A stretch of DNA of 56,152 nucleotides from Alcanivoracaceae bacterium (GTDB lineage Bacteria; Pseudomonadota; Gammaproteobacteria; Xanthomonadales; Marinicellaceae): assembly GCA_016744455.1 (NCBI GenBank), contig JADGEI010000015.1, positions 1-56,152 of the forward strand. The letters are read 5' to 3'. Numbering within the stretch: position 1 is the first letter of the stretch; each line of letters starts with the position of its first letter. Made by a program: the position numbers and the translations under genes. The notes beneath the pieces are model-generated. The model had not been told where the DNA came from and made no database searches. It saw only the letters and a list, made by a program, of their open reading frames with translations. Below are positions 30,755-56,152 of the stretch, piece by piece.

Positions 30755-33433
30755 ATGGTTATAATAAGGTATTGTTTATTATGCTTTTTATTTGAATTGT
30801 TCATAGTTCAAGATGTTTTCGCGGCGACAATCAATTTTGGGTCAAATGGTTGTACTTTGCAAGATGCAATTCATAGCGCTAATAATGATACTTCTGTTGG
30901 CAATTGTTCATCAGGTTCAGGTACTGATGTTCTAATTGCACCTGATGTATGGATTAAGACAATCAACTCTGTATTGCCAACCATTACATCTGATATGACT
31001 ATTACTACTGCAACTAATTCTGGCTTGTTAGAGATAAATGGTAATGGGCATAGGATATTTAAAATCATAGGCACTTCAACTGATATTACTTTAGCTAGGG
31101 TATACCTTCATCATGGTGGTGCAACCAGCGCAATTGATGGTGGTGGAGCGATGAGAATTATTGATGCTTCTGTTAGCCTACAAGATTCTTATTTATATGA
31201 TAACGACAGTTATGTGGGTAAAGGCGGTGCCATTTTCATTGATGATGGCGATTTGAATATTAACCAGACTGTTTTTTTACATAATAATGCATTTAAAACA
31301 GCACAATTTAATGGAATTACTTATGGCGGAGCGATTTACGCTAAAGATTCAAATTTAACAATAGCACAAACTAGTTTCTTAGAAAATAGTTCACAATATG
31401 GATTATCAGCCCAAATATTAGATTTCATCCACATAGGTGTCGCAGCCAGTATATATATGGATAGTGGCGATCTAATCATAAGTGAAAGCTTATTCAATGA
31501 AAATTATACGGGCATTTTGGCAGAAGGTGTGATTGCGACTATTTCCAATAGCACGTTTAATCGAAAATTAAGTAATCCATACCCTGACCGTTCACTTATT
31601 GATTTCAGAGACTTTTCAGCACTAACTTTAAATCACAACACGTTAAAAACACCTGTCCAAGTACAAGACTCTATACTCAATATGACCAACACTATATTAT
31701 ACGGTGAGTGTCGACTTTCTATTAATGTGGATTGGATTATTAATAGCGGAAATATATACAATACAGATAGGTTCAATTGTGATGGCGGTCTATTTGATAG
31801 GCCTAGGTTATTAGATTTGAGCGATAATGGAGGGTCTACAGTTACTTTTGGGTTACATCATTTGTCAGATGCTATTGATGCTGGTGATCCGGCTTATTGT
31901 TTACCTACTGACCAAAGGGGCGAAAATAGAGGTATTTTATGCGATATTGGGGCATTTGAAGTCACCGGTTTTGCCGATATTGAAGTATCGGGTTCTTTTT
32001 TACAAAATTTACCTTATGTCAGTGCCCAAGAAGTTTTATATACCATTACTGTAAAAAACAATGGCCCAGCAATAGCTACTGATGTAGAAGTGGATATAAA
32101 TACAAATCATATATTTGTTACGGGTATAGACACATCTTTATGTGCTTCATTTCCATGTGTGCTTAGTAGTATCCAGCCTAATCAAGAGGTGATTATTCCT
32201 GTTTCTTTAACTATGGGAAACCATTTAAACAGCCCTTTTGAATTAACGGCTTCTGCTCTAGCTACTACTAGCTCTCTTTATACGGATGTTGATTTAGGAA
32301 ATAATTCTACAGTAACAATAAATGAACCAATTAATCAAGGAGCTGACATGGCTGTAAACATGAATTTATTGACATCAGCCCCGTATTTTGTTGGGCAGGC
32401 GTTAACATATGAAGCCACGATTACTAATCATGGTCAGCAAACGGCAAGTAATGTTGTGCTGGAGTTTATTCCATCTGGGTTAAATAATATAATCTTCCAG
32501 AACTGTAACTCTACTGTTGGTCAAACTTGTAGTTATCAAAATATGTTAAACAACGGTACAGGAACTATCATAATTAAAGCAGATATTACAGCATCATCAT
32601 TTGATGCTACTGCTGAAATCTCATCAAGTTTGATAGATATTAATAGTTCCAATAATATTGATGAAATTGGGAATAATGGAGCAGTGACACAAGCAAATAT
32701 CGAAATTACAACGGATATTAATCAATTAGCTCCGTATTATGCCTACCAGTACCTCGAGTTTAATGTGTATATTAGTACTGGAAATACACCAGCAAGTAAT
32801 ATACATGTTTTCTCTGATTTTCCTGATGCAGAATACATCGGTGCGAGTGGCTGTGGTTTCCCTTGTGTTATTCCATCAATGGCTGCAAATAGTATGCAAA
32901 CCATCACCTTACAGTATTTTGCTCCGACTGAAGTGGATGCCATGAATAACTCCTTCACTCATCACATCGTGGTAACGCCAGCTCAAACGGACCCAGATAT
33001 GTCAAATAATGAAGTTACCATTGTGCAGCCGTTAGTTCCAGCAGCAGATGTGGCTGTTGATTTGACTTTGTCAACTCTTGGCCCATTTACCGTTGGGCAA
33101 ACCGTGCAATACCAGTTACGTGTCGTCAATGCTGGTGTTAGTCATGCGTCAAATGTAGACATAGGATTGATTCCTGATAATTTAACCTTGCTTTGGGCTG
33201 TTAGTGATAATTGCACAACTGTCGATTGTAACCTTACTAATTTAGATAGATTTCATGAAGAGAATTTAACCCTGGCTTACACTATAAATGGTCCAGAATT
33301 GTTTGACTTAATGGCCACAGTTGAAGCTAATGAATTAGATATTTTTCCAAATAACAACACAGATGATAGTGGCAATGATGGCAACGCAGTATTAATTCAA
33401 GGTGAATTAATGCTTGTTGATGGTTTTGAGTAA
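30755..33433 (+). CDS. Secreted beta-helix protein with DUF11 repeats and a GFE C-terminal tail
   Basis: 892 residues with a signal peptide (cut near VFAATI, residue 24). The mature start, FGSNGCTLQDAIHSAN, is CSLREAI-like. Residues about 80-330 show short Gly/Asn/Asp-rich repeats (SLQDSYLYDN, LNINQTVFLHNN, LTIAQTSFLEN) that predict a right-handed beta-helix. A choice-of-anchor-Q-like segment ends it (GLHHLSDAIDAGDPAYC ... CDIGAFE). Four DUF11-type Ig-like repeats follow, each opening ADIEV, ADMAV, ANIEI or ADVAV and carrying a xxNxGxxxAxxV core. The last residues are LMLVDGFE, the tail shared with other exported proteins here. A surface adhesin or structural role is likely, but unproven. AAGGA lies before the ATG. 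Confidence 0.75.
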   Translation: MVIIRYCLLCFLFELFIVQDVFAATINFGSNGCTLQDAIHSANNDTSVGNCSSGSGTDVLIAPDVWIKTINSVLPTITSDMTITTATNSGLLEINGNGHRIFKIIGTSTDITLARVYLHHGGATSAIDGGGAMRIIDASVSLQDSYLYDNDSYVGKGGAIFIDDGDLNINQTVFLHNNAFKTAQFNGITYGGAIYAKDSNLTIAQTSFLENSSQYGLSAQILDFIHIGVAASIYMDSGDLIISESLFNENYTGILAEGVIATISNSTFNRKLSNPYPDRSLIDFRDFSALTLNHNTLKTPVQVQDSILNMTNTILYGECRLSINVDWIINSGNIYNTDRFNCDGGLFDRPRLLDLSDNGGSTVTFGLHHLSDAIDAGDPAYCLPTDQRGENRGILCDIGAFEVTGFADIEVSGSFLQNLPYVSAQEVLYTITVKNNGPAIATDVEVDINTNHIFVTGIDTSLCASFPCVLSSIQPNQEVIIPVSLTMGNHLNSPFELTASALATTSSLYTDVDLGNNSTVTINEPINQGADMAVNMNLLTSAPYFVGQALTYEATITNHGQQTASNVVLEFIPSGLNNIIFQNCNSTVGQTCSYQNMLNNGTGTIIIKADITASSFDATAEISSSLIDINSSNNIDEIGNNGAVTQANIEITTDINQLAPYYAYQYLEFNVYISTGNTPASNIHVFSDFPDAEYIGASGCGFPCVIPSMAANSMQTITLQYFAPTEVDAMNNSFTHHIVVTPAQTDPDMSNNEVTIVQPLVPAADVAVDLTLSTLGPFTVGQTVQYQLRVVNAGVSHASNVDIGLIPDNLTLLWAVSDNCTTVDCNLTNLDRFHEENLTLAYTINGPELFDLMATVEANELDIFPNNNTDDSGNDGNAVLIQGELMLVDGFE

Positions 33434-33505
33434 TACTCACGTTAAAAATCATTGATTGCGAGAAGGTGCAAATCTACATAGGCAAATAAAACTACATTTC
33501 CATAG

Positions 33506-33530
33506 AAAAAGGGTTCAATAGAACCCTTTT
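33506..33530. terminator. Bidirectional terminator between converging genes
   Basis: The stem AAAAGGGTTC / GAACCCTTTT with loop AATA sits between the beta-helix gene and the DUF1501 gene, A-rich on one side and T-rich on the other. Confidence 0.8.
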
Positions 33531-33559
33531 ATGCATGAGTTAAAACTATAAAAAAACTG

Positions 33560-34933
33560 TTATTCAAAACCACCTTTATAAATGAGGTCAGGGTCATTAT
33601 TGAAATCAGGTTCTAAGGCTGCACCAGATACGACACCTAGAGGTTTGTATTCAGATTCTGGAAAGCCTGGAAAAATTTGATGGATTTGATTGTTGTGCAG
33701 TCGTTTTAGCAAAACCTCTGACCAAACACTACGATAATCAACTGTACCACGTAAGTCAGCCCCTTGAAACAAGTCATTAGGAGCAAGTCCTGGCCATTGG
33801 CCGTATTGCCTACCACCATTAACACCTCCACCCATAACTAATGAAGTATTAGCCCAACCGTGATCAGTTCCTGCATCATTATTATCGAAAGCACGGCGGC
33901 CAAATTCGCTGTAAACGACCATGGTTGTTCTATCTGCCCATGTCCCACCACCTGGTGCGGCTACATCTAAGTCAGTAAAAAAGGCTTTGAATGCCTCAGA
34001 AATATTTCTTACATTGTCATAAAACCCTTCGCCAACAACTAAGTTGTTTTGGGTGTTATGAGTGTCCCAACCGCCTTGATCAGCTTGACCAATTCTTAGC
34101 CCTGTGTCCTGCTTTATTAATTGAGCCAGAATTTGCATCTTATCACCAAAGCTAGTAAGGCTTCCAGGGTTATCTGCACGCGTTGGGTATTGAGCACCAT
34201 TATCAGGTGGCGCATCAAAATCAACTTGTTCAACAATTTCAACAGCAGTCATGGCTTGTTCACCAGCTGCATCTAGCTCGTTGCTTCCTGCTGCATAGAT
34301 ATCAGCTAAAGCTTGCTCTTGATCATCATTAAAGCCGCCACTTGTGGTTGTGTCAAAATCAAATGAACTAGGGTAACGTAAAGATACGGCTGTAGGTTCG
34401 CGCAACAAAGAGAAAGTTATCTTTGATTCTGCAACAACGGCAGGCAATGGAATGGAGGACGGGTAATTTGTGGCTGTTTGTAAGTGCCTGGTTAGCCAAC
34501 CTTGTTGGGTAAAGCGATTGCCAGGAGTTCCAAGCTCAGCATAACGTTCTGCTTCAAAATGGCTTCGATTTACTTCATAATCAGGTAAACCACAGGCGCG
34601 GACTATTGCCAGATCTTCTTGTTGGTATAGTTCTTGTAGAGGGCCTGCTGCAGGGTGTAAGCCAAAACCGCCACCAACCGAAAGCAATTGATTGCTTGGT
34701 ATCATGGTGCCATTTGATCTTAGTGTTTCATAGTGTCCACGATCTTGGTGGCCATCCATTGGTGTAAATAGGCTCAGCCCATCCATTCCTCCACGTAAAA
34801 AGACAAAGATGAGGATATTGTCAGAATAATTGTTACTGCCACCACCGGCAAAGGAAACTGATGGTGCACCCATTGTTGCTAAAGTTGATGCACCAATGCC
34901 TTTTAAAAAATTTCTACGATTAAATTTACTCAT
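33560..34933 (-). CDS. Tat-exported DUF1501 protein with a GFE C-terminal tail
   Basis: 457 residues. The twin-arginine signal RRNFLKGIGASTLATMGAPS is at residues about 6-25. The body matches DUF1501, a family related to sulfatases/alkaline phosphatases: NILIFVFLRGGMDGLSLFTP near the start, VRACGLPDYEVNRSHFEAE, and in the second half GGWDTHNTQ, MVVYSEFGRRAFDNNDAGTD and HGWANTSLVMGGGVNGG, where conserved Asp, His and Glu may bind metal. Function is unknown. It is second in a tandem with DUF1800, 15 bp downstream, a pairing found in many bacteria. It ends DLIYKGGFE, so the GFE tail here rides on a Tat substrate. A GAGGAG ribosome site supports the start. Confidence 0.88.
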   Translation of the reverse strand: MSKFNRRNFLKGIGASTLATMGAPSVSFAGGGSNNYSDNILIFVFLRGGMDGLSLFTPMDGHQDRGHYETLRSNGTMIPSNQLLSVGGGFGLHPAAGPLQELYQQEDLAIVRACGLPDYEVNRSHFEAERYAELGTPGNRFTQQGWLTRHLQTATNYPSSIPLPAVVAESKITFSLLREPTAVSLRYPSSFDFDTTTSGGFNDDQEQALADIYAAGSNELDAAGEQAMTAVEIVEQVDFDAPPDNGAQYPTRADNPGSLTSFGDKMQILAQLIKQDTGLRIGQADQGGWDTHNTQNNLVVGEGFYDNVRNISEAFKAFFTDLDVAAPGGGTWADRTTMVVYSEFGRRAFDNNDAGTDHGWANTSLVMGGGVNGGRQYGQWPGLAPNDLFQGADLRGTVDYRSVWSEVLLKRLHNNQIHQIFPGFPESEYKPLGVVSGAALEPDFNNDPDLIYKGGFE

Positions 34934-34948
34934 TATTTTCTCCTCTTA

Positions 34949-36760
34949 TTAGCGACGAATAGCATCAGGTGACATTAATATTAACCCAACCAAAGTGTAA
35001 GTGATTCGGTGGTAAGTACTATCATTTGTAGTATCATTGGTATCCATTACATCATGCAATGATTGAAGTGCTGTCACTCCTCCTTTGTCCATTACATAAG
35101 TGATGAGCCTAGTTCTAGTCGCTGCATCATAACTATAGCCTCGTAATCTAAGCATCCACATATCAACTAATTGCGTAGGTGTCCTGTTAGTTGTTGATGG
35201 AAGTTCACTGTTGCCTTGTTCTGCAACATTACAATAATGTAGCCTATCCATTTCGCCTGTGTCAGGATCATCATAAGTATCACCGCTTCGTCCTAAGAAG
35301 TAGGTGATAGTTCTCCAAGTGGTAACTAATGGACCTGTACCAGACCATAACGGCTTTTCATCAGGGTAACCCGTTGGTGTATCGTTATCGTAGGGTTCTT
35401 GACCTGTATCATCAAGCCTCGAATAAACACTGTTACTTGGGCTATGATCATTACGAAAGTCAATATCTACATCAGCTGCACGCATGGCAGCAATAATGTT
35501 TTCTAATGGCCTTTTGACTTTGTTACCCCATGTTGTTTTAAATTCATTTGATAACAATATATGGCGATACACTTCTTTTAGTTGATCGCTATCATTACGT
35601 CTGTTGTAAAATTCATCTGCAGTACTTGAGACTAATGACTCTGGAGGATTGTCACCAACAAATCGTGTACATAATTTCCATGCAATAAAACGTGCAGTAC
35701 CATAATGTTCAGATAGATAAGCTAGTATGTCAGTGACATCATTTTCACCTCCATCAACTGCAATGTTTACATCCAATACTTCAATCGGCTCACTTGCATG
35801 TTCATCGTAATGTTGTTCACTTCGGAATAAAAATTCACCAGTATCAGCTGAACCACCCGTACCATCAGCAACACTCCAGCCAGTAAGTGCACGGGCGAAT
35901 TGAAATACGTCTATTTCGGTATACCCAGATCGTTGCCCTTTACTATTATTGCCAACTGTATTTGGATCAACTGCCCCATAATAGTTTTCAATAGCACCAA
36001 GTGTATGCAGTTCTAATACTTCTCTTGCGTAGTTTTCATTTGGATTTGGCCATGAGTTGCGGTAGTTATCTAGGTAAAATAACATACTTGCTGTTCGTGA
36101 ATTTGCTTCTAACATATCGTAGAAGTTTCCAAACATCCGAGAACGAATCTCTTCATTATAGTGAGGAAGCATGCCTTGAGCAGGAAAATCATTGCCTTTA
36201 ATATTGAAATGGTTAAACCAAAAATCGTTTAGCATTTCACGCAATTGCCACTGGCTGTATACGCCACGAAGTATCATTAAAGTTTCCATTTGCCAGCGTG
36301 GACGATTTCTGATGAGGTAATCATCATCAATTGCATGATCTGCCCATAATTGTAGTGCGGTTTTATTAATTGTGTCATAGGCAGCAATACTCGAAAGAAA
36401 GGCCAGACGGTTATCAATATCTGGATCTGATACTGTTGGATTGAGTTGATTGTCAACCCATGCAGTAAGCCTAGTATTATCATCACCACCCAGGTTATTA
36501 AAATCATCTATGTCACCTGGCTTTGGCCCAAAGGCAGCTTTGTTTAACACTAAGGCGGCTAGTGGTGGTGCAGAGGTGCTTCCTGCCGTTGTAATCGGTG
36601 CTGGCTTTAAACCCTTAATATTATTAAATACGGGTGAAACTGCAGTAGCTTTATTTGACACTGGTAATGTAAAGGCAGTAACTCCTAATGCAGTAGTTGC
36701 AGCACTAGCACTGATAAATTTACGTCGTGAAGTTGACGTGCTTGGTTTTTTTGTTTTCAT
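34949..36760 (-). CDS. Tat-exported DUF1800 protein
   Basis: 603 residues with a twin-arginine signal (SRRKFISASAATTALGVTAF, about residues 11-30). The DUF1800 body shows LNKAAFGPKPGDIDDF, QLREMLNDFWFNHFNIKG, NENYAREVLELHTLGAI, the FARALTGW motif and RFIAWKLCTRFV. No catalytic role is known for the family. It has no GFE tail (it ends with Ala-Ile-Arg-Arg). AGAGAGGG lies before the ATG. It is the first gene of the DUF1800-DUF1501 pair; the two probably form one periplasmic or surface system. Confidence 0.88.
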   Translation of the reverse strand: MKTKKPSTSTSRRKFISASAATTALGVTAFTLPVSNKATAVSPVFNNIKGLKPAPITTAGSTSAPPLAALVLNKAAFGPKPGDIDDFNNLGGDDNTRLTAWVDNQLNPTVSDPDIDNRLAFLSSIAAYDTINKTALQLWADHAIDDDYLIRNRPRWQMETLMILRGVYSQWQLREMLNDFWFNHFNIKGNDFPAQGMLPHYNEEIRSRMFGNFYDMLEANSRTASMLFYLDNYRNSWPNPNENYAREVLELHTLGAIENYYGAVDPNTVGNNSKGQRSGYTEIDVFQFARALTGWSVADGTGGSADTGEFLFRSEQHYDEHASEPIEVLDVNIAVDGGENDVTDILAYLSEHYGTARFIAWKLCTRFVGDNPPESLVSSTADEFYNRRNDSDQLKEVYRHILLSNEFKTTWGNKVKRPLENIIAAMRAADVDIDFRNDHSPSNSVYSRLDDTGQEPYDNDTPTGYPDEKPLWSGTGPLVTTWRTITYFLGRSGDTYDDPDTGEMDRLHYCNVAEQGNSELPSTTNRTPTQLVDMWMLRLRGYSYDAATRTRLITYVMDKGGVTALQSLHDVMDTNDTTNDSTYHRITYTLVGLILMSPDAIRR

Positions 36761-36949
36761 AAAACCCTCTCTTGATTTATTTATGTTTGATATTAATGGT
36801 CAATATTAGTTAAATAATAGCATTAAAATTGTGATGCACTTTGTATTTTTATAAGGATAATTTAATTTTTTCATCTAATTAACAGGTATATTACAATTTA
36901 TATAGCTGGATTGACTATACTTTAAAAATTATTAATCATAGGAAATTTT

Positions 36950-37507
36950 ATGAAACTACTTATTACCATTTGCCTTGCCTTTGTCATTTCTACCAAAGCT
37001 TTTGCTTTTGGAAGTGGTTCAGGTACCTGTGTTATTGATAAAGACTATACCAGTGTGACATTAATGACGGATCGATTCAGAAATTTGAATAGCGGAACAT
37101 ATCAAGTAACCTCAAATATGTCTGAGTATACGCCAGGACAACCGGTAGAATTGACCGTTTCTGGTCCAGAATATACTGGGTTATTATTCACTGTAGTTAA
37201 TGAGGCTGGTGAAAATGTAGGTACATTTATGCCAGAAGCCAATTTCATCCATGAATGTACGGGTACTAACCCGACAACACCCCCTGCTGCTGCAGTTACT
37301 CATTTGTCGACATTTGGTAATTTAACGAGTTATACCTTGTTTTGGATTCCACCATCTTCAAGTGTTGGTAAAGTATACGTATTGGGTTATGTTTTAAAAG
37401 GAGCAAGAGGGGATAGAAATTCACAAGAATTTTTCCGTTTTGTTCGAGATGATGATTCTGCTATTAGCCTTGAAAGCACCATATTATTTGCGAATGGCTT
37501 TGAATAA
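36950..37507 (+). CDS. Secreted Reeler-domain-like protein with a GFE C-terminal tail
   Basis: 185 residues with a signal peptide (cut near TKAFAFG). The mature part resembles the Reeler domain known mainly from animal proteins: SEYTPGQPVELTVSGPEYTG, then VGTFMPE, a Cys at HECTG, AVTHLSTFG and the closing strand YTLFWIPPSSSVGKVYVLGY. The two Cys (in SGTCVID and HECTG) could form the domain's disulfide. The tail STILFANGFE matches the shared C-terminal motif. AGGAA precedes the ATG. The role is unknown; in animals Reeler domains occur in extracellular matrix, defence and ferric-reductase-like proteins. Confidence 0.7.
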   Translation: MKLLITICLAFVISTKAFAFGSGSGTCVIDKDYTSVTLMTDRFRNLNSGTYQVTSNMSEYTPGQPVELTVSGPEYTGLLFTVVNEAGENVGTFMPEANFIHECTGTNPTTPPAAAVTHLSTFGNLTSYTLFWIPPSSSVGKVYVLGYVLKGARGDRNSQEFFRFVRDDDSAISLESTILFANGFE

Positions 37508-37530
37508 TTGGCAAGTCGTAAGGTTAAATC

Positions 37531-38400
37531 TTATAGCTGGACACTAAATACTTGAAATGTCACATTGTTAGTACTGTTTGAATCGGTGTTATTAATTGTA
37601 AAAAGAGCTGACAACAATTCAATTGTATTGACGAGGGTTGCATTAGGAACTTCAAGTATGTGAGAAACAGTGATGATTAATTTTTCACCTGGGTTGATGG
37701 AAGCATTTTGTAAACGTACAAACCCCTCTCCATTATTCATGTCTCCACAGGTAGTTGTTGACCCAGTGCCTATATTGGTTGGATTACAACTCCAATCGTC
37801 TCCAAGTACTCCTGAGAAAAAGGGTTTGCTATTATCAAGAGGGTAATGCTCTGTTAAATTAGCAGATAAATCTGATTCTCCGTTATTTGTAATGACATAC
37901 TGGTATTCAACGGTATCTTGGTCGCTAAAAACCGTGTTGATTGGAAATGTCATGCCATTGCTGTTAAAAATATCCAATTGTAAATCAGTTTCATCAAATC
38001 CGTTCATGAATAAAGTGCCGTTATTTAAAATACCATTTTCAGTAGCACACTGAATACTATTGTCTGTATTGATTTTAGTGATGCCATTTATAAAATCATA
38101 CTCAGTATTAATAATATTATGATTGAGAATTGATAATGGTAAATTATTACTGTCATTAAAGGCTGTAACAATAGTGGTAGGGCTAGAATTATTTAAGCTA
38201 CTACAGACAATAGGAGTCGTTATTTGTAAACTTAGAGTGCTTGGGTTGTTTTGGTATGAATAAACGATATTTCCTTGTGTCGCTAAACTTTTTGAGGCAT
38301 TTAATGAAACTTCTATAGCACTAGCATTATTCGTCATGTAACAAATTGATAGGGTTAATAATTTAGTGGTGTTTTTAAAAAAACTTATGTGCTTATGCAT
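37531..38400 (-). CDS. Secreted DUF11-like protein with an internal GFD motif
   Basis: 289 residues. The N-terminus has a likely signal peptide (CYMTNNASA, about residues 20-28). The first part is a beta-rich domain of unknown family. After residue 137 comes a DUF11-like Ig repeat: VEYQYVITNNGESDLSANLT, CGDMNNGEGFVRL and PGEKLIITVSHIL. At residues about 129-137 the segment TLFMNGFDE looks like the GFE tail of its neighbours but is followed by this extra repeat. One reading is that a tail-ended protein was extended by fusion with a DUF11 module. It converges on the Reeler-like gene. Confidence 0.6.
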   Translation of the reverse strand: MHKHISFFKNTTKLLTLSICYMTNNASAIEVSLNASKSLATQGNIVYSYQNNPSTLSLQITTPIVCSSLNNSSPTTIVTAFNDSNNLPLSILNHNIINTEYDFINGITKINTDNSIQCATENGILNNGTLFMNGFDETDLQLDIFNSNGMTFPINTVFSDQDTVEYQYVITNNGESDLSANLTEHYPLDNSKPFFSGVLGDDWSCNPTNIGTGSTTTCGDMNNGEGFVRLQNASINPGEKLIITVSHILEVPNATLVNTIELLSALFTINNTDSNSTNNVTFQVFSVQL

Positions 38401-53700: not shown

Positions 53701-55666
53701 GAAAGTAGCCGCTCCCGTTGTGGTATCGGCATCCATGCCCCGTTTTATTGCCAAAGGCGATCACTCTTATGCCACTATTGATATTCATAATACCGAAGAT
53801 TTTGCTCAATCTATTCAACTAGAACTAACTGCTGATAAGGCGCTGGGCGGGCAATCCAGTAAAATAGAATTACAACTTAATGGTAAAGAAAAAAATATTT
53901 TGAAATTACCAATTACGGCAAAATTACATAGTGGTATTGGTAGTATCAATGTCAAAGCCAGTATTTTGGGTCCAAACAGTTATCAGTTAGAAAGAGATTG
54001 GAATCTTGGTATTCGCCCAGCTTATCCAGCAATAACCCAGTCACAAAGTAAAATTTTGGAAAAAGGTCAAATCTTCAAACTCGAGGAAAACAGCCTTAAT
54101 AAATTTGATGATGGCAGTTTAAAATCTATTCTTAAGGTATCAAATATACCGGTATTAAATGAAGGAGAGCATTTGCATAACCTCATCCAATACCCTTATG
54201 GTTGCTTAGAGCAAACCTCAAGTCGCATGTGGCCATTATTGGATGTTGAAGAAAGCGACTTTGGGCTATTTGCCACAGAAAAACAACATGAAATCTTTTC
54301 AAAACGCAGTCAATTGGTCGATGAGGCCATTAGCCGAATTCTTGGCATGCAACGTTATGATGGTAGTTTTGGGTTGTGGAACAAGGATTCTCACGAAGAA
54401 AAATGGTTAACAGCATACGTAACGGACCTGTTATTAAAAGCTAGAGTTTTAGGTTACAGTGTGCCTGACAAAGCCTTACAAAAAGCCACAAAGCGACTAG
54501 CTAAATACGTAAAAGGTAATAAATATATTAATTCTGATATTGCTAGGTATTTAAGCAACAAAAACCACTATTTGCTAGCTTATCAAGCCTACGCAGCATA
54601 TGTGTTGGCAGGTATTAAACAAGTCAATCTACAAGATGTGCGAAAACTCTATGATCAACATGCCAAAAATGCTAAACGGCCTTTGCCTTTGGCTCATCTT
54701 GCCATGGCTTTGGAGTTACTAGGCGATGATCGCAGAGCTAGTGAAGCATGGTTGAAAGCCTTAGATTTTCCTCAAGATACTAAGCGTTCTTATTATGCGG
54801 ATTATGGTTCATCGATTCGAGATTTATCACAGGTAATCTTACTTAGTAATAAAAGTCACATCACTAAGTCTTTAGCAAAATCAGGTTATCAATTGTTAGC
54901 ACCACTACAAGAAGCGATAAAAAAACGTCATTGGCTTTCAACTCAAGAACGCGGCTCGTTGTTTAGGTTGGCAAAATCCATGAAGAAAAATAGATTAAAT
55001 AACAATAAGTGGACCGCAACACTAAATGAACAAAACAATCAAGAGGACTTATCTCAAAGCGACGACTTGATACAGTTATGGCATAACTCATCCGCCAAAA
55101 CTAGTTTTGATTTAAGCAATACTGGTGACCAACCTTTATTTGTCGACTTTAAAACTCAGGGGTATTTAAGCAAATCTAAGCCTGAAAGTAATGGTATATC
55201 AGTGACCAGAAATTATTTTGACACCCAAGGTAATTTATTAGATATAAGCCAATTAACCACAGGCGAGATGATATTAGTGCACTTAGAGGTTAGTATCAAA
55301 GACAAGAAGTTTAACTACATCCCTGATGCCATGTTGGTAGAGTTATTACCTGCGGGCTTAGAGTTAGAAAACCAAAACTTAGAACACGCCTATAAGTTGG
55401 ATAACCTCATCTTCGGAACCAAGAAAAACCGTAAGTCAATTTGGGACTGGCAAAGAAATAACATAAGCAATCATGAAGAATACAGAGATGATCGTTTTGT
55501 TTCCGCAGTTTCATTATCAAAATACTACCCGACACACGTTTTTTATCTTGCCCGTGCCGTAACCCCGGGAACCTACACCATCCCACCTACATTGGTTGAA
55601 GACATGTACCGCCCTGAAATCAGAGCAATAGGTGGAAATGATGGAGTAATGCAGATTAATGAATAG
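50753..55666 (+). CDS. Bacterial alpha-2-macroglobulin lipoprotein (YfhM-type)
   Basis: Large periplasmic protease trap. 1637 residues with a lipoprotein signal (FFLSAC, Cys at about residue 16). Macroglobulin-like domains fill the first two thirds, with the MG/bait-region feature LYAPRDLYRPGETVNINGLL and ALVVLDTGVLNI-like AVDTGVLNISNFKTPNPFEW. The thioester motif CLEQ (Cys1151, in YPYGCLEQTSSRMWPL) is intact, followed by the helical thioester domain (MQRYDGSFGLWNKDS) and a C-terminal receptor-like beta-domain (PDAMLVELLPAGLELEN). In many proteobacteria it pairs with penicillin-binding protein 1C; here the 3' side is a repeat array and then the window ends, so that cannot be checked. TATAAT at 50706-50711 may be its -10 box. 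Confidence 0.93.
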   Translation: MKKTLIIITLFFLSACNDEQVNDSTITSQQSSVQLVNSKLKNNTPIEYSELTEFKILSIVEGLYDSTPAIQINLTLPIDNRQKVSQLVKVMLDDEQVKGEWIHSNKSNTLSFPFIEAEKNYKIIVEEGLLSLNGKSLQKGTVKNITSKPYQKSVRFTSKGSTLLKDSNILPIEAVNVDAVDMKFWRIHADKYSQFFNMSYRNEVYSLERLYQIGDVVYTSQFTLDSVKNKREKHNISIKNIKEVQKAGLYFVTMLPKDMYSYNLETTWFMSTDIGLHTRMYQDSIVAFTHKLPDAEVYPDITISLLDKTGGQLAQAKTDEQGFAELKTTDLQKAVLLVARKGDNFNLIRLNKAKMDLSEFNLVSRKNNPQELFLYAPRDLYRPGETVNINGLLRNYDGEYVKASPIKVSIKRPDNRVVKSFDWQGDASSLYETEFRVPLDAMTGQWLFNAQLANKDIFNYKFAVEDFLPERLKLELISGVDSGHIAATIEPVIKVQSDYLYGAPAANNRFDATVTVKTETQLFDYKNYAFGSKNYRDFKLTFDTDQQKLDANGYGEIILDNEWKETKFPLRINSYVTVYESGGRPISRNITHSVWPQSVAVGVRPLWNTDYASPQSNNEIELIAINQLGEKIDLNNVDVLLIRENDNRYWQWGDDGWSYSNNRDNQAVYNSVINISKDSQNVVNMPLDYGSYRVEIRDQNKHLLSSYAFFSGWRWYDENASKGERPDQVKLEWLADHVTPDSTAELKITAPYAGTALITIESDKVLYKQSLQMDSAEHTISIPIAKEWNSHNIYASVMVIRKGEIKRKHLPARSFGIIHLPLNRDSRQLDIAIENPKRVLPESKTSIKIKANNLDVGKETYLTLAAVDTGVLNISNFKTPNPFEWFFAKRKYLAAIRDMYRSIIALGDGKNATQKFGGDGDINRGGDEPTSDVQIVSLFSQKVKFDQNGEAVIELDIPYFNGELRLMAMAFNDNQFAGVESFMKVAAPVVVSASMPRFIAKGDHSYATIDIHNTEDFAQSIQLELTADKALGGQSSKIELQLNGKEKNILKLPITAKLHSGIGSINVKASILGPNSYQLERDWNLGIRPAYPAITQSQSKILEKGQIFKLEENSLNKFDDGSLKSILKVSNIPVLNEGEHLHNLIQYPYGCLEQTSSRMWPLLDVEESDFGLFATEKQHEIFSKRSQLVDEAISRILGMQRYDGSFGLWNKDSHEEKWLTAYVTDLLLKARVLGYSVPDKALQKATKRLAKYVKGNKYINSDIARYLSNKNHYLLAYQAYAAYVLAGIKQVNLQDVRKLYDQHAKNAKRPLPLAHLAMALELLGDDRRASEAWLKALDFPQDTKRSYYADYGSSIRDLSQVILLSNKSHITKSLAKSGYQLLAPLQEAIKKRHWLSTQERGSLFRLAKSMKKNRLNNNKWTATLNEQNNQEDLSQSDDLIQLWHNSSAKTSFDLSNTGDQPLFVDFKTQGYLSKSKPESNGISVTRNYFDTQGNLLDISQLTTGEMILVHLEVSIKDKKFNYIPDAMLVELLPAGLELENQNLEHAYKLDNLIFGTKKNRKSIWDWQRNNISNHEEYRDDRFVSAVSLSKYYPTHVFYLARAVTPGTYTIPPTLVEDMYRPEIRAIGGNDGVMQINE

Positions 55667-55687
55667 GAAGCGATGATACAAAAAAAC

Positions 55688-56152
55688 CGTCATTCCTGCG
55701 ACGGCAGGAATCCACAATTCTCGTCATTCCTGCGAAGGCAGGAATCCACAATTCTCGTCATTACCGCGAAGGCAAGAGTCCACAACTCCCGTCCTTCCTG
55801 CGAAGGCAACAATCCACAACTCCCGCCATTCATGCGAAGGCAAGAATCCACAACTCCCGTCATTCCTGCGACGGCAGGAAACTACAACTCCCGTCATTCC
55901 TGCGACGGCAGGAAACCACAACTCCCGCCCTTCCTGCGACGGCAAGAGTCCACAACTCCCGTCCTTCCTGCGACGGCAAGAATCCACAACTCCCGTCCTT
56001 CCTGCGAAGGCAGGAATCCACAATTCTCGTCATTCATGCGAAGGCAAGAATCCACAACTCCCGTCATTCCTGCGACGGCAGGAAACCACAACTCCCGCCC
56101 TTCCTGCGACGGCAAGAGTCCACAACTCCCGTCCTTCCTGCGACGGCAAGAA
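55688..56152. repeat. Tandem array of 34-bp palindromic units, running off the window
   Basis: Thirteen full units and a partial fourteenth, each 34 bp, starting at 55688 + 34n. A typical unit begins CGTCATTCCTGCGACGGC and ends in CACAACTCC or CACAATTCT. The core CTGCGACGGCAG can form a small hairpin in some units. Variants recur in the same order (units 5-9 resemble 11-14), which shows block-wise expansion. There are no unique spacers, so it is not CRISPR. Open frames on the minus strand across it exist only because the repeat lacks stops. Confidence 0.9.

Follow-up and report, generated by a model that had tools for sequence, protein, structure and literature searches.

Several bacterial systems place a C-terminal label on many different exported proteins. 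In Bacteroidota, the type IX system addresses many surface proteins by a folded C-terminal domain of ∼70–100 residues, PEP-CTERM proteins combine a PEP motif with a membrane helix and a basic cluster, and type I secretion system (T1SS) substrates with a C-terminal signal have no N-terminal signal peptide. The element described here, which we call the tag, is a short tail ending in Gly-Phe-Glu (GFE) that was noticed in a 56,152-nucleotide stretch of DNA (the window) forming the start, from base 1, of contig C13 in the 3.62 Mb, 47-contig genome of an Alcanivoracaceae bacterium. Like the type IX domain it stands at the C-terminus of many proteins, but nothing is conserved before position −10, and it has neither the PEP motif nor the helix nor the basic cluster of PEP-CTERM. 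It shares with the PEP-CTERM/exosortase label, as the consulted part of the original report presents it (PMC1569441), a lineage-patchy occurrence at C-termini that is found through genome comparison.

The GlyGly-CTERM/rhombosortase label, according to the portions consulted of two reports (PMC3237569, PMC6219818), is tripartite, with a hydrophobic region and a basic end, undergoes processing by a rhomboid-like protease and is tied to the type II secretion system (T2SS) in Vibrio. It too marks many unrelated exported proteins of Gram-negative bacteria; the present tag, however, spans only about nine residues, lacks a helix or basic end and is sometimes N-terminal. For the T2SS itself, the consulted sections of two studies (PMC12369372, PMC7949064) know no common linear signal. 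A T2SS whose GspC carries a PDZ domain selects some substrates (EpsC/VesB; PMC12369372), and the exposed nine-residue loop 3 of PelI acts as a signal via GspC and GspD (PelI/Pel3; PMC7949064), but as described there these signals are protein-specific and structural. Titles and opening lines of abstracts in the open-licence literature on the motif, on C-terminal sorting in the order and on linear T2SS signals contain no description of the tag, which is apparently an undescribed class of sorting label.

An earlier note on this DNA had named four shared tails, and all four are present in the translation of the window. DVIFVNGFE-stop (20–49, + strand) ends a gene cut by the contig start at base 1. 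ELMLVDGFE-stop (33404–33433, +) closes an exported protein of 892 aa (30755–33433, +) with a choice-of-anchor Q domain (NCBIfam NF041518, E 6e-16) and DUF11 repeats (Pfam, E 2e-31). DLIYKGGFE-stop (33560–33589, −) closes a Tat-type DUF1501 protein of 457 aa (33560–34933, −; Pfam DUF1501, E 3e-29, residues 41–403), and TILFANGFE-stop (37478–37507, +) an exported Reeler-domain protein of 185 aa (36950–37507, +; Pfam Reeler, E 2e-10, residues 48–148). The span 30755–38400 given for them holds three of the tails; the tail at 20–49 lies outside it, and two genes within it (34949–36760 and 37531–38400) have no terminal tail. Export signals on the complete tagged proteins, by both the Sec and Tat routes, are seen in three of three: the N-termini of 30755–33433 and 36950–37507 are Sec-like by eye (a crude signal rule missed the former), and 33560–34933 has an RRNFLK Tat motif with a Pfam TAT_signal match (E 0.00086) under the curated cut-off.

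Across the genome the pattern GGNTTYGARTRR matches 81 times, against 39 for its reverse, and nine of the 81 matches end in TGG, which is no stop. The remaining 72 in-frame GFE-stop sites (71 in the list after removal of duplicates) comprise 48 that close open reading frames (ORFs) of at least 70 aa, two in genes cut by contig ends and 22 in shorter frames. Base composition predicts ∼0.5 GFE ends per 3,200 genes, against the 50 gene ends found. At the DNA level the stricter form F-x-[ND]-G-F-E-stop has 45 matches and its reverse none. The 50 tails (48 closed ORFs and the two cut genes), in which G-F-E is invariant by selection of the set, give the consensus [DE]-x-[ILVM]-F-x-[ND]-G-F-E (roughly D-x-I-F-x-N-G-F-E), with D or E at −9 in 37, I, L, V, M or F at −7 in all 50, F at −6 in 46 and N or D at −4 in 48; no conserved position stands out upstream of −10. 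The [ND]-[GS] core is nearly strict, and variants with S in place of G, or with one additional residue, are also seen. The tag is thus almost certainly a genuine short linear element.

The codons of the tag vary (four for Gly, two for Glu, all three stops, both TTC and TTT for Phe at −6), with Phe at −2 encoded by TTT in 47 of 47 tails counted. The 24-base tail, with the selected GFE included, has a mean pair identity of 0.75, versus 0.31 upstream and 0.30 downstream. This variety of codons and the unrelated flanking DNA indicate that selection acts on the protein. A DNA-level repeat is ruled out by the same flanks and, given 45 matches against none in the control, chance can be regarded as refuted.

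The proteins that carry the tag are diverse, as had been claimed for the four in the window. When the 48 closed proteins are grouped by BLAST (E 1e-5) together with two variants that carry one extra residue, 31 groups result, and 27 of these consist of a single protein. A Pfam scan of 19 tagged proteins matched DUF11, DUF1501, Reeler, subtilase (two), zinc carboxypeptidase, InlB-type, cadherin-like, FG-GAP and MAM-like domains, Endonuclease I with a lamin tail domain, and a trypsin-like domain under its cut-off; four of the 19 had no match. Several of the tagged proteins are hydrolases of kinds often exported by T2SS.

Signal peptides are enriched among GFE-ended proteins, a check that the earlier note had proposed. 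By the crude rule, which allows alternative starts, Sec or Tat signals occur in 41 of 51 tagged proteins. Of 318 other ORFs of 100 aa or longer from the same stretches, 127 have such a signal. When a signal counts only if no membrane helix follows, the figures become 40 of 51 and 89 of 318 (Fisher p 9e-12). The ORFs used for comparison are neighbors of motif sites rather than a random genome sample, gene calls are crude, and genes open at a stretch end are excluded from the count. A previous version of the signal rule gave 38 of 48 versus 165 of 370. Ten tagged proteins were missed by the crude rule; eight of them have a signal visible by eye and two (L007, L012) are ambiguous. The signal peptides do not fit T1SS substrates with a C-terminal signal.

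The tag is an addition to complete folds, not a piece of one. Pfam domains end ahead of it (Endonuclease I at residue 718 of 742, subtilase at 467 of 489, DUF7507 at 896 of 916); in one further tagged protein, a plastocyanin-like match covers only residues 28–117 of 232 and is silent on where the fold ends relative to the tag. We also sought DUF1501 relatives in a panel of 74 genomes, 36 of them tag-positive and 38 tag-poor or low. Matches at 1e-20 were found in 50 genomes, and 30 were fetched as loci. Among 24 readable proteins from tag-bearing or low-copy genomes, a set that excludes L184 (wrong frame) and L202 (unparsed), 22 finish in the tag or a near variant of it, with GSFE, GFD, GFQ and GME accepted as such; the exceptions are from genomes G362 and G434. 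Proteins from tag-poor genomes are tagged in zero of four cases: those of G281 and G308 stop right after the domain, and those of G397 and G303 continue into unrelated sequence, so that the tail appears as an addition to the shared domain. A related-locus scan for DUF1501 returned six close relatives and one distant match, and the ends of the six vary (DSFE, DGFE, GSFE, DGAE), so the sequence is not rigid. The 31 groups, the tail-less orthologs and the domain ends together rule out that the tail is the last strand of one shared domain, the reading against which the earlier note had asked that its proposal be checked.

That last strand, or alternatively the truncated first strand of a jelly-roll-like domain, would make the tail evolutionary debris with no sorting role. 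Two proteins of genome G282 lend this some substance. In these the motif continues into GDTSAW or GDTSSW (IFADGFE[ST]GDTS[AS]W; L142:5762-6886, L144:4981-6330); in one protein a long C-terminal region follows, and in the other the long form is itself a short tail. A third G282 protein has the variant DDFETGDTSAW. On this reading the long form would be the first strand of such a domain. However, a search through the genes of six genomes gave the longer GDTS form in G282 only, and fifty copies with diverged codons, unrelated flanks, restriction to exported proteins and add-on behavior require selection, which leaves debris improbable. Separately, the long G282 form is a possible evolutionary source of the tag.

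The absence of known sorting features, which the earlier note had read from the window, holds across the tagged set. Of 55 tagged proteins, one has a 19-mer with mean hydropathy of at least 1.6 in its last 60 residues; K or R is absent from the last 10 residues of 47 and occurs once in the other eight; and LPxTG is found in none. With no terminal membrane helix, basic cluster or LPxTG, the tag does not fit PEP-CTERM, GlyGly-CTERM or LPXTG, nor does it fit a type IX substrate, given that conservation is confined to the last nine positions of the 50 tails. NCBIfam C-terminal sorting models gave no match in six of six tagged proteins scanned, although a tail so short may score below what is listed. 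Two features of T2SS substrates are present, namely a Sec or Tat signal and a T2SS in the same genome.

When the stop is not required, the motif is matched 73 times in this genome and 31–99 times in each of 11 others, with 0–4 for the reversed pattern. Here 45 of the 73 matches are exactly terminal; in other lineages up to ∼20 residues follow the motif, often only a few. Stretches from five further genomes hold 17 copies that are exactly terminal and 26 whose end lies no more than 20 residues from the terminus; five start within 65 residues of the protein start (one in a gene cut by a contig end) and five are internal, of which at least two look like antisense noise by eye. The motif stands right after the signal peptide, at the mature N-terminus, in L109, L143, L164 and L066; occurs as tandem copies 13 residues apart in L132 and L142; and lies between domains in L036 and L082. 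Exact terminality is therefore a lineage-specific feature: the description of the motif as exactly terminal suits the four tails of the window and 45 of the 73 matches in this genome, but not the extended, doubled or N-terminal copies found elsewhere.

The tag is also restricted in its distribution. In a sample of the class, F-x-[ND]-G-F-E-stop occurs in 20 of 274 genomes including this one, with at most two matches in each of the others, and the rest of the class sample shows the tag no more often than chance would give. Within the order, the stop form is present in 94 of 200 genomes; counts of the motif without stop range from 0 to 113, are bimodal and patchy within the order, and tag-positive genomes have from about ten to more than 100 matches each. 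Among 30 loci from eleven low-count genomes read by eye, those that look real number 2 of 12 in genus g232, 9 of 9 in G334, G393 and G433 together, 1 of 3 in G403, and 0 of 3 in each of G348 and G280.

A T2SS in general is too broad to be the partner of the tag, since GspD (TIGR02517) exceeds the curated cut-off in 70 of the 74 panel genomes, comprising 35 of 36 tag-positive (the G385 match is partial, at contig ends) and 35 of 38 tag-poor genomes. A tree of 60 GspD sequences, however, divides into two clades, A and B, with support of 100, and only type A discriminates. Clade A has 31 rows, of which 25 are from tag-positive genomes, one from a low-copy genome (G328) and five from tag-poor genomes (G353, G281, G300, G315, G329); the 29 rows of clade B come from tag-positive and tag-poor genomes alike. 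Among the tag-positive genomes fetched, only G368 has no type A row. A profile built from 16 type A rows and run on the same 200 genomes of the order gave matches at 1e-60 in 108, of which 99 were counted as type A (partial contig-end matches in G443, G419, G433, G385, G394, G458 and G323 included) and nine weaker ones in family f2 set aside. On this count, 73 of the 82 tag-positive genomes have type A GspD, as do 26 of the 118 tag-negative ones (p 4e-22), a genome being tag-positive here when its motif matches exceed those of the reversed-pattern control by at least 8 (thresholds of 9 and 10 give the same picture). By genus majority, the tag-positive genera with and without type A number 30 and 2, versus 5 and 32 for tag-negative genera. 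Two families match exactly (counts in the order tag-positive with type A, tag-positive lacking it, tag-negative with type A, tag-negative lacking it): f182 at 4/0/0/29 and, by the chosen cut, f2 at 1/0/0/34. What these data establish is that the tag is real, that unrelated exported proteins carry it and that it is found together with type A.

The type A locus of this genome (L204) encodes a small lipoprotein, a GspC with a PDZ domain, a hydrolase, GspD, GspE and GspF. Its GspC matches T2SSC and PDZ (PDZ_2, E 8e-9). Of the 31 type A loci, 28 yielded a GspC, and to the eye each of these ends in a similar PDZ-like region (the Pfam search covered this genome's GspC). The type B GspC of this genome has a weak T2SSC match and no PDZ match. 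The solved proteins most closely related to this genome's type A GspD are T2SS secretins, with 5wln as the best. The type A profile at 1e-60 matches 175 of 274 genomes of the class, many more weakly than in the order, so type A looks like the ordinary class-wide T2SS, to which the tag would be a local addition.

From these observations we propose that the tag is a short linear sorting label carried at a flexible end (in most cases the C-terminus) by proteins that Sec or Tat has taken across the inner membrane. It would mark folded periplasmic proteins for export across the outer membrane through the ordinary gammaproteobacterial T2SS, type A, and would probably be read by the periplasmic part of type A GspC, with its PDZ domain as the putative reader. 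The deeply different type B system would coexist with it and serve other substrates. That the tag addresses exported proteins to type A is the best single hypothesis, though we hold it tentatively, at slightly less than even confidence.

Several observations weigh against it. A free carboxyl directly after the motif, as expected of a PDZ ligand, is provided by the 45 terminal matches of this genome, but residues after the tag and N-terminal copies in other lineages speak against a PDZ pocket that needs a free carboxyl end. Three families do not separate (f178 2/3/4/26, f1 27/3/2/1, f179 11/1/20/2), and in genus g232 type A is present in 19 of 21 genomes (G281, G300, G308 and others) with none of the 21 tag-positive. 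The nine tag-negative f2 genomes set aside above on profile strength match the type A profile with E values between 1e-110 and 1e-140, six of them only in part and three over nearly the full length; when they are counted as type A the comparison becomes 73/9 versus 35/83 (p 1e-17) and f2 no longer matches exactly. Conversely, nine genomes have the tag without type A GspD. A search for type A GspE in eight of these (all but G442) found a type A-like GspE at 67% identity in G384, which if counted would give 74/8 versus 26/92, and none in G389, G448, G319, G330 and G449, whose assemblies are fragmented or incomplete; but G334 and G368 of family f178, 97–98% complete, have neither type A GspD nor GspE though tagged.

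Shared ancestry could also account for the association. Type A seems to have been lost independently only about four times (in f2, in f182, within f178, and in G280), so relatedness inflates the p value. The last of these, a genome of the same family as ours, has no GspD match and five motif matches versus one reversed, and the three that were read are not tails. An arbitrarily chosen tagged gene, DUF1501 (E ≤1e-40), shows a comparable association in the 74 genomes (31 of 36 versus 6 of 38, with type A at 35 of 36 versus 9 of 38). Moreover, type A looks class-wide, while the tag has at most two stop-form matches per genome elsewhere in the class, so the T2SS does not generally need a tag. Predicted structures were of low confidence, with mean pLDDT of 29.5 for the DUF1501 protein (7-row alignment) and 36.3 for the Reeler protein (single sequence). 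No candidate processing enzyme emerged near tagged genes in the clustered neighborhoods of six genomes, where no sortase, exosortase or rhombosortase family was searched for. Of the sorting, anchoring, processing or secretion role suggested by the earlier note, the short linear element on unrelated exported proteins stands, and a processing enzyme has no candidate in these neighborhoods.

The tag may alternatively be a sorting or anchoring label for another receptor or enzyme; examples would be a receptor on the cell surface, a transpeptidase that acts at the [ND]-G bond, and a factor for vesicle loading. The link to type A would then be indirect, through shared ancestry or because secretion delivers cargo to the receptor. 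We consider this a substantial possibility, if short of a probable one. The usage resembles that of known sorting tags, with many cargoes per genome, one lineage and a choice-of-anchor Q partner domain, the nearly strict [ND]-[GS] core fits as well, and type A and the tag each occur without the other. Known processed tags, however, have a membrane helix or basic stretch that this one lacks, and only common families recur as neighbors in the six genomes, which is weak evidence because no enzyme family was searched by profile.

One more candidate reader is a periplasmic protease with a PDZ domain. Proteases of the DegS and DegP type bind C-terminal peptides, and the own GspC PDZ domain is closest in sequence to solved DegP chains, so the tail might be a periplasmic quality-control or degradation signal. 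This is very improbable, since the tag is fixed on many kinds of normal exported proteins, also at mature N-termini, and is lineage-specific, whereas DegP-like proteases are widespread.

If type A is the reader, how a T2SS recognizes folded cargo, an open question, would become directly testable with a compact, transferable tag. The strongest version of this proposal, that the whole order evolved a portable linear T2SS address in which nine residues at either end of any folded protein suffice via PDZ-GspC, is conceivable but in our view doubtful; if true, it would contradict the view in the field that no such address exists for T2SS. The tag would allow the secretome to be read from sequence in many poorly known genomes of the order, and would offer a small secretion handle. 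Even with another receptor as its reader, it would be an apparently undescribed class of sorting tag.

Among genes near the tag, the alpha/beta hydrolase of L204 (10776–11690), between gspC and gspD, was considered as a candidate enzyme and rejected, because nothing in the other 30 type A loci matches it; its sole match among the loci is in L251, a type B locus, and it is probably lineage-specific. Besides tagged proteins, the neighbor families found in at least three of the six genomes are response regulators, ECF-type sigma factors, ABC and RND transporters, pseudouridine-synthase-like proteins, kinases and what we take to be an M13-like peptidase. ECF-type sigma factors and protein kinases lie near tagged genes in three to four of these genomes (L001, L144, L147, L148) and are perhaps regulators. 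In the window, the gene beside that for the DUF1501 protein (34949–36760) appears to be its Tat-like partner and is untagged, ending in SPDAIRR. The exported protein encoded at 37531–38400 contains an internal, non-terminal near-match, LFMNGFD (37993–38013, −), that is possibly unrelated. Finally, a tandem array with a 34-base unit occupies 55585–56152, up to the last base of the window, and gives rise to a repetitive ORF that is probably false.

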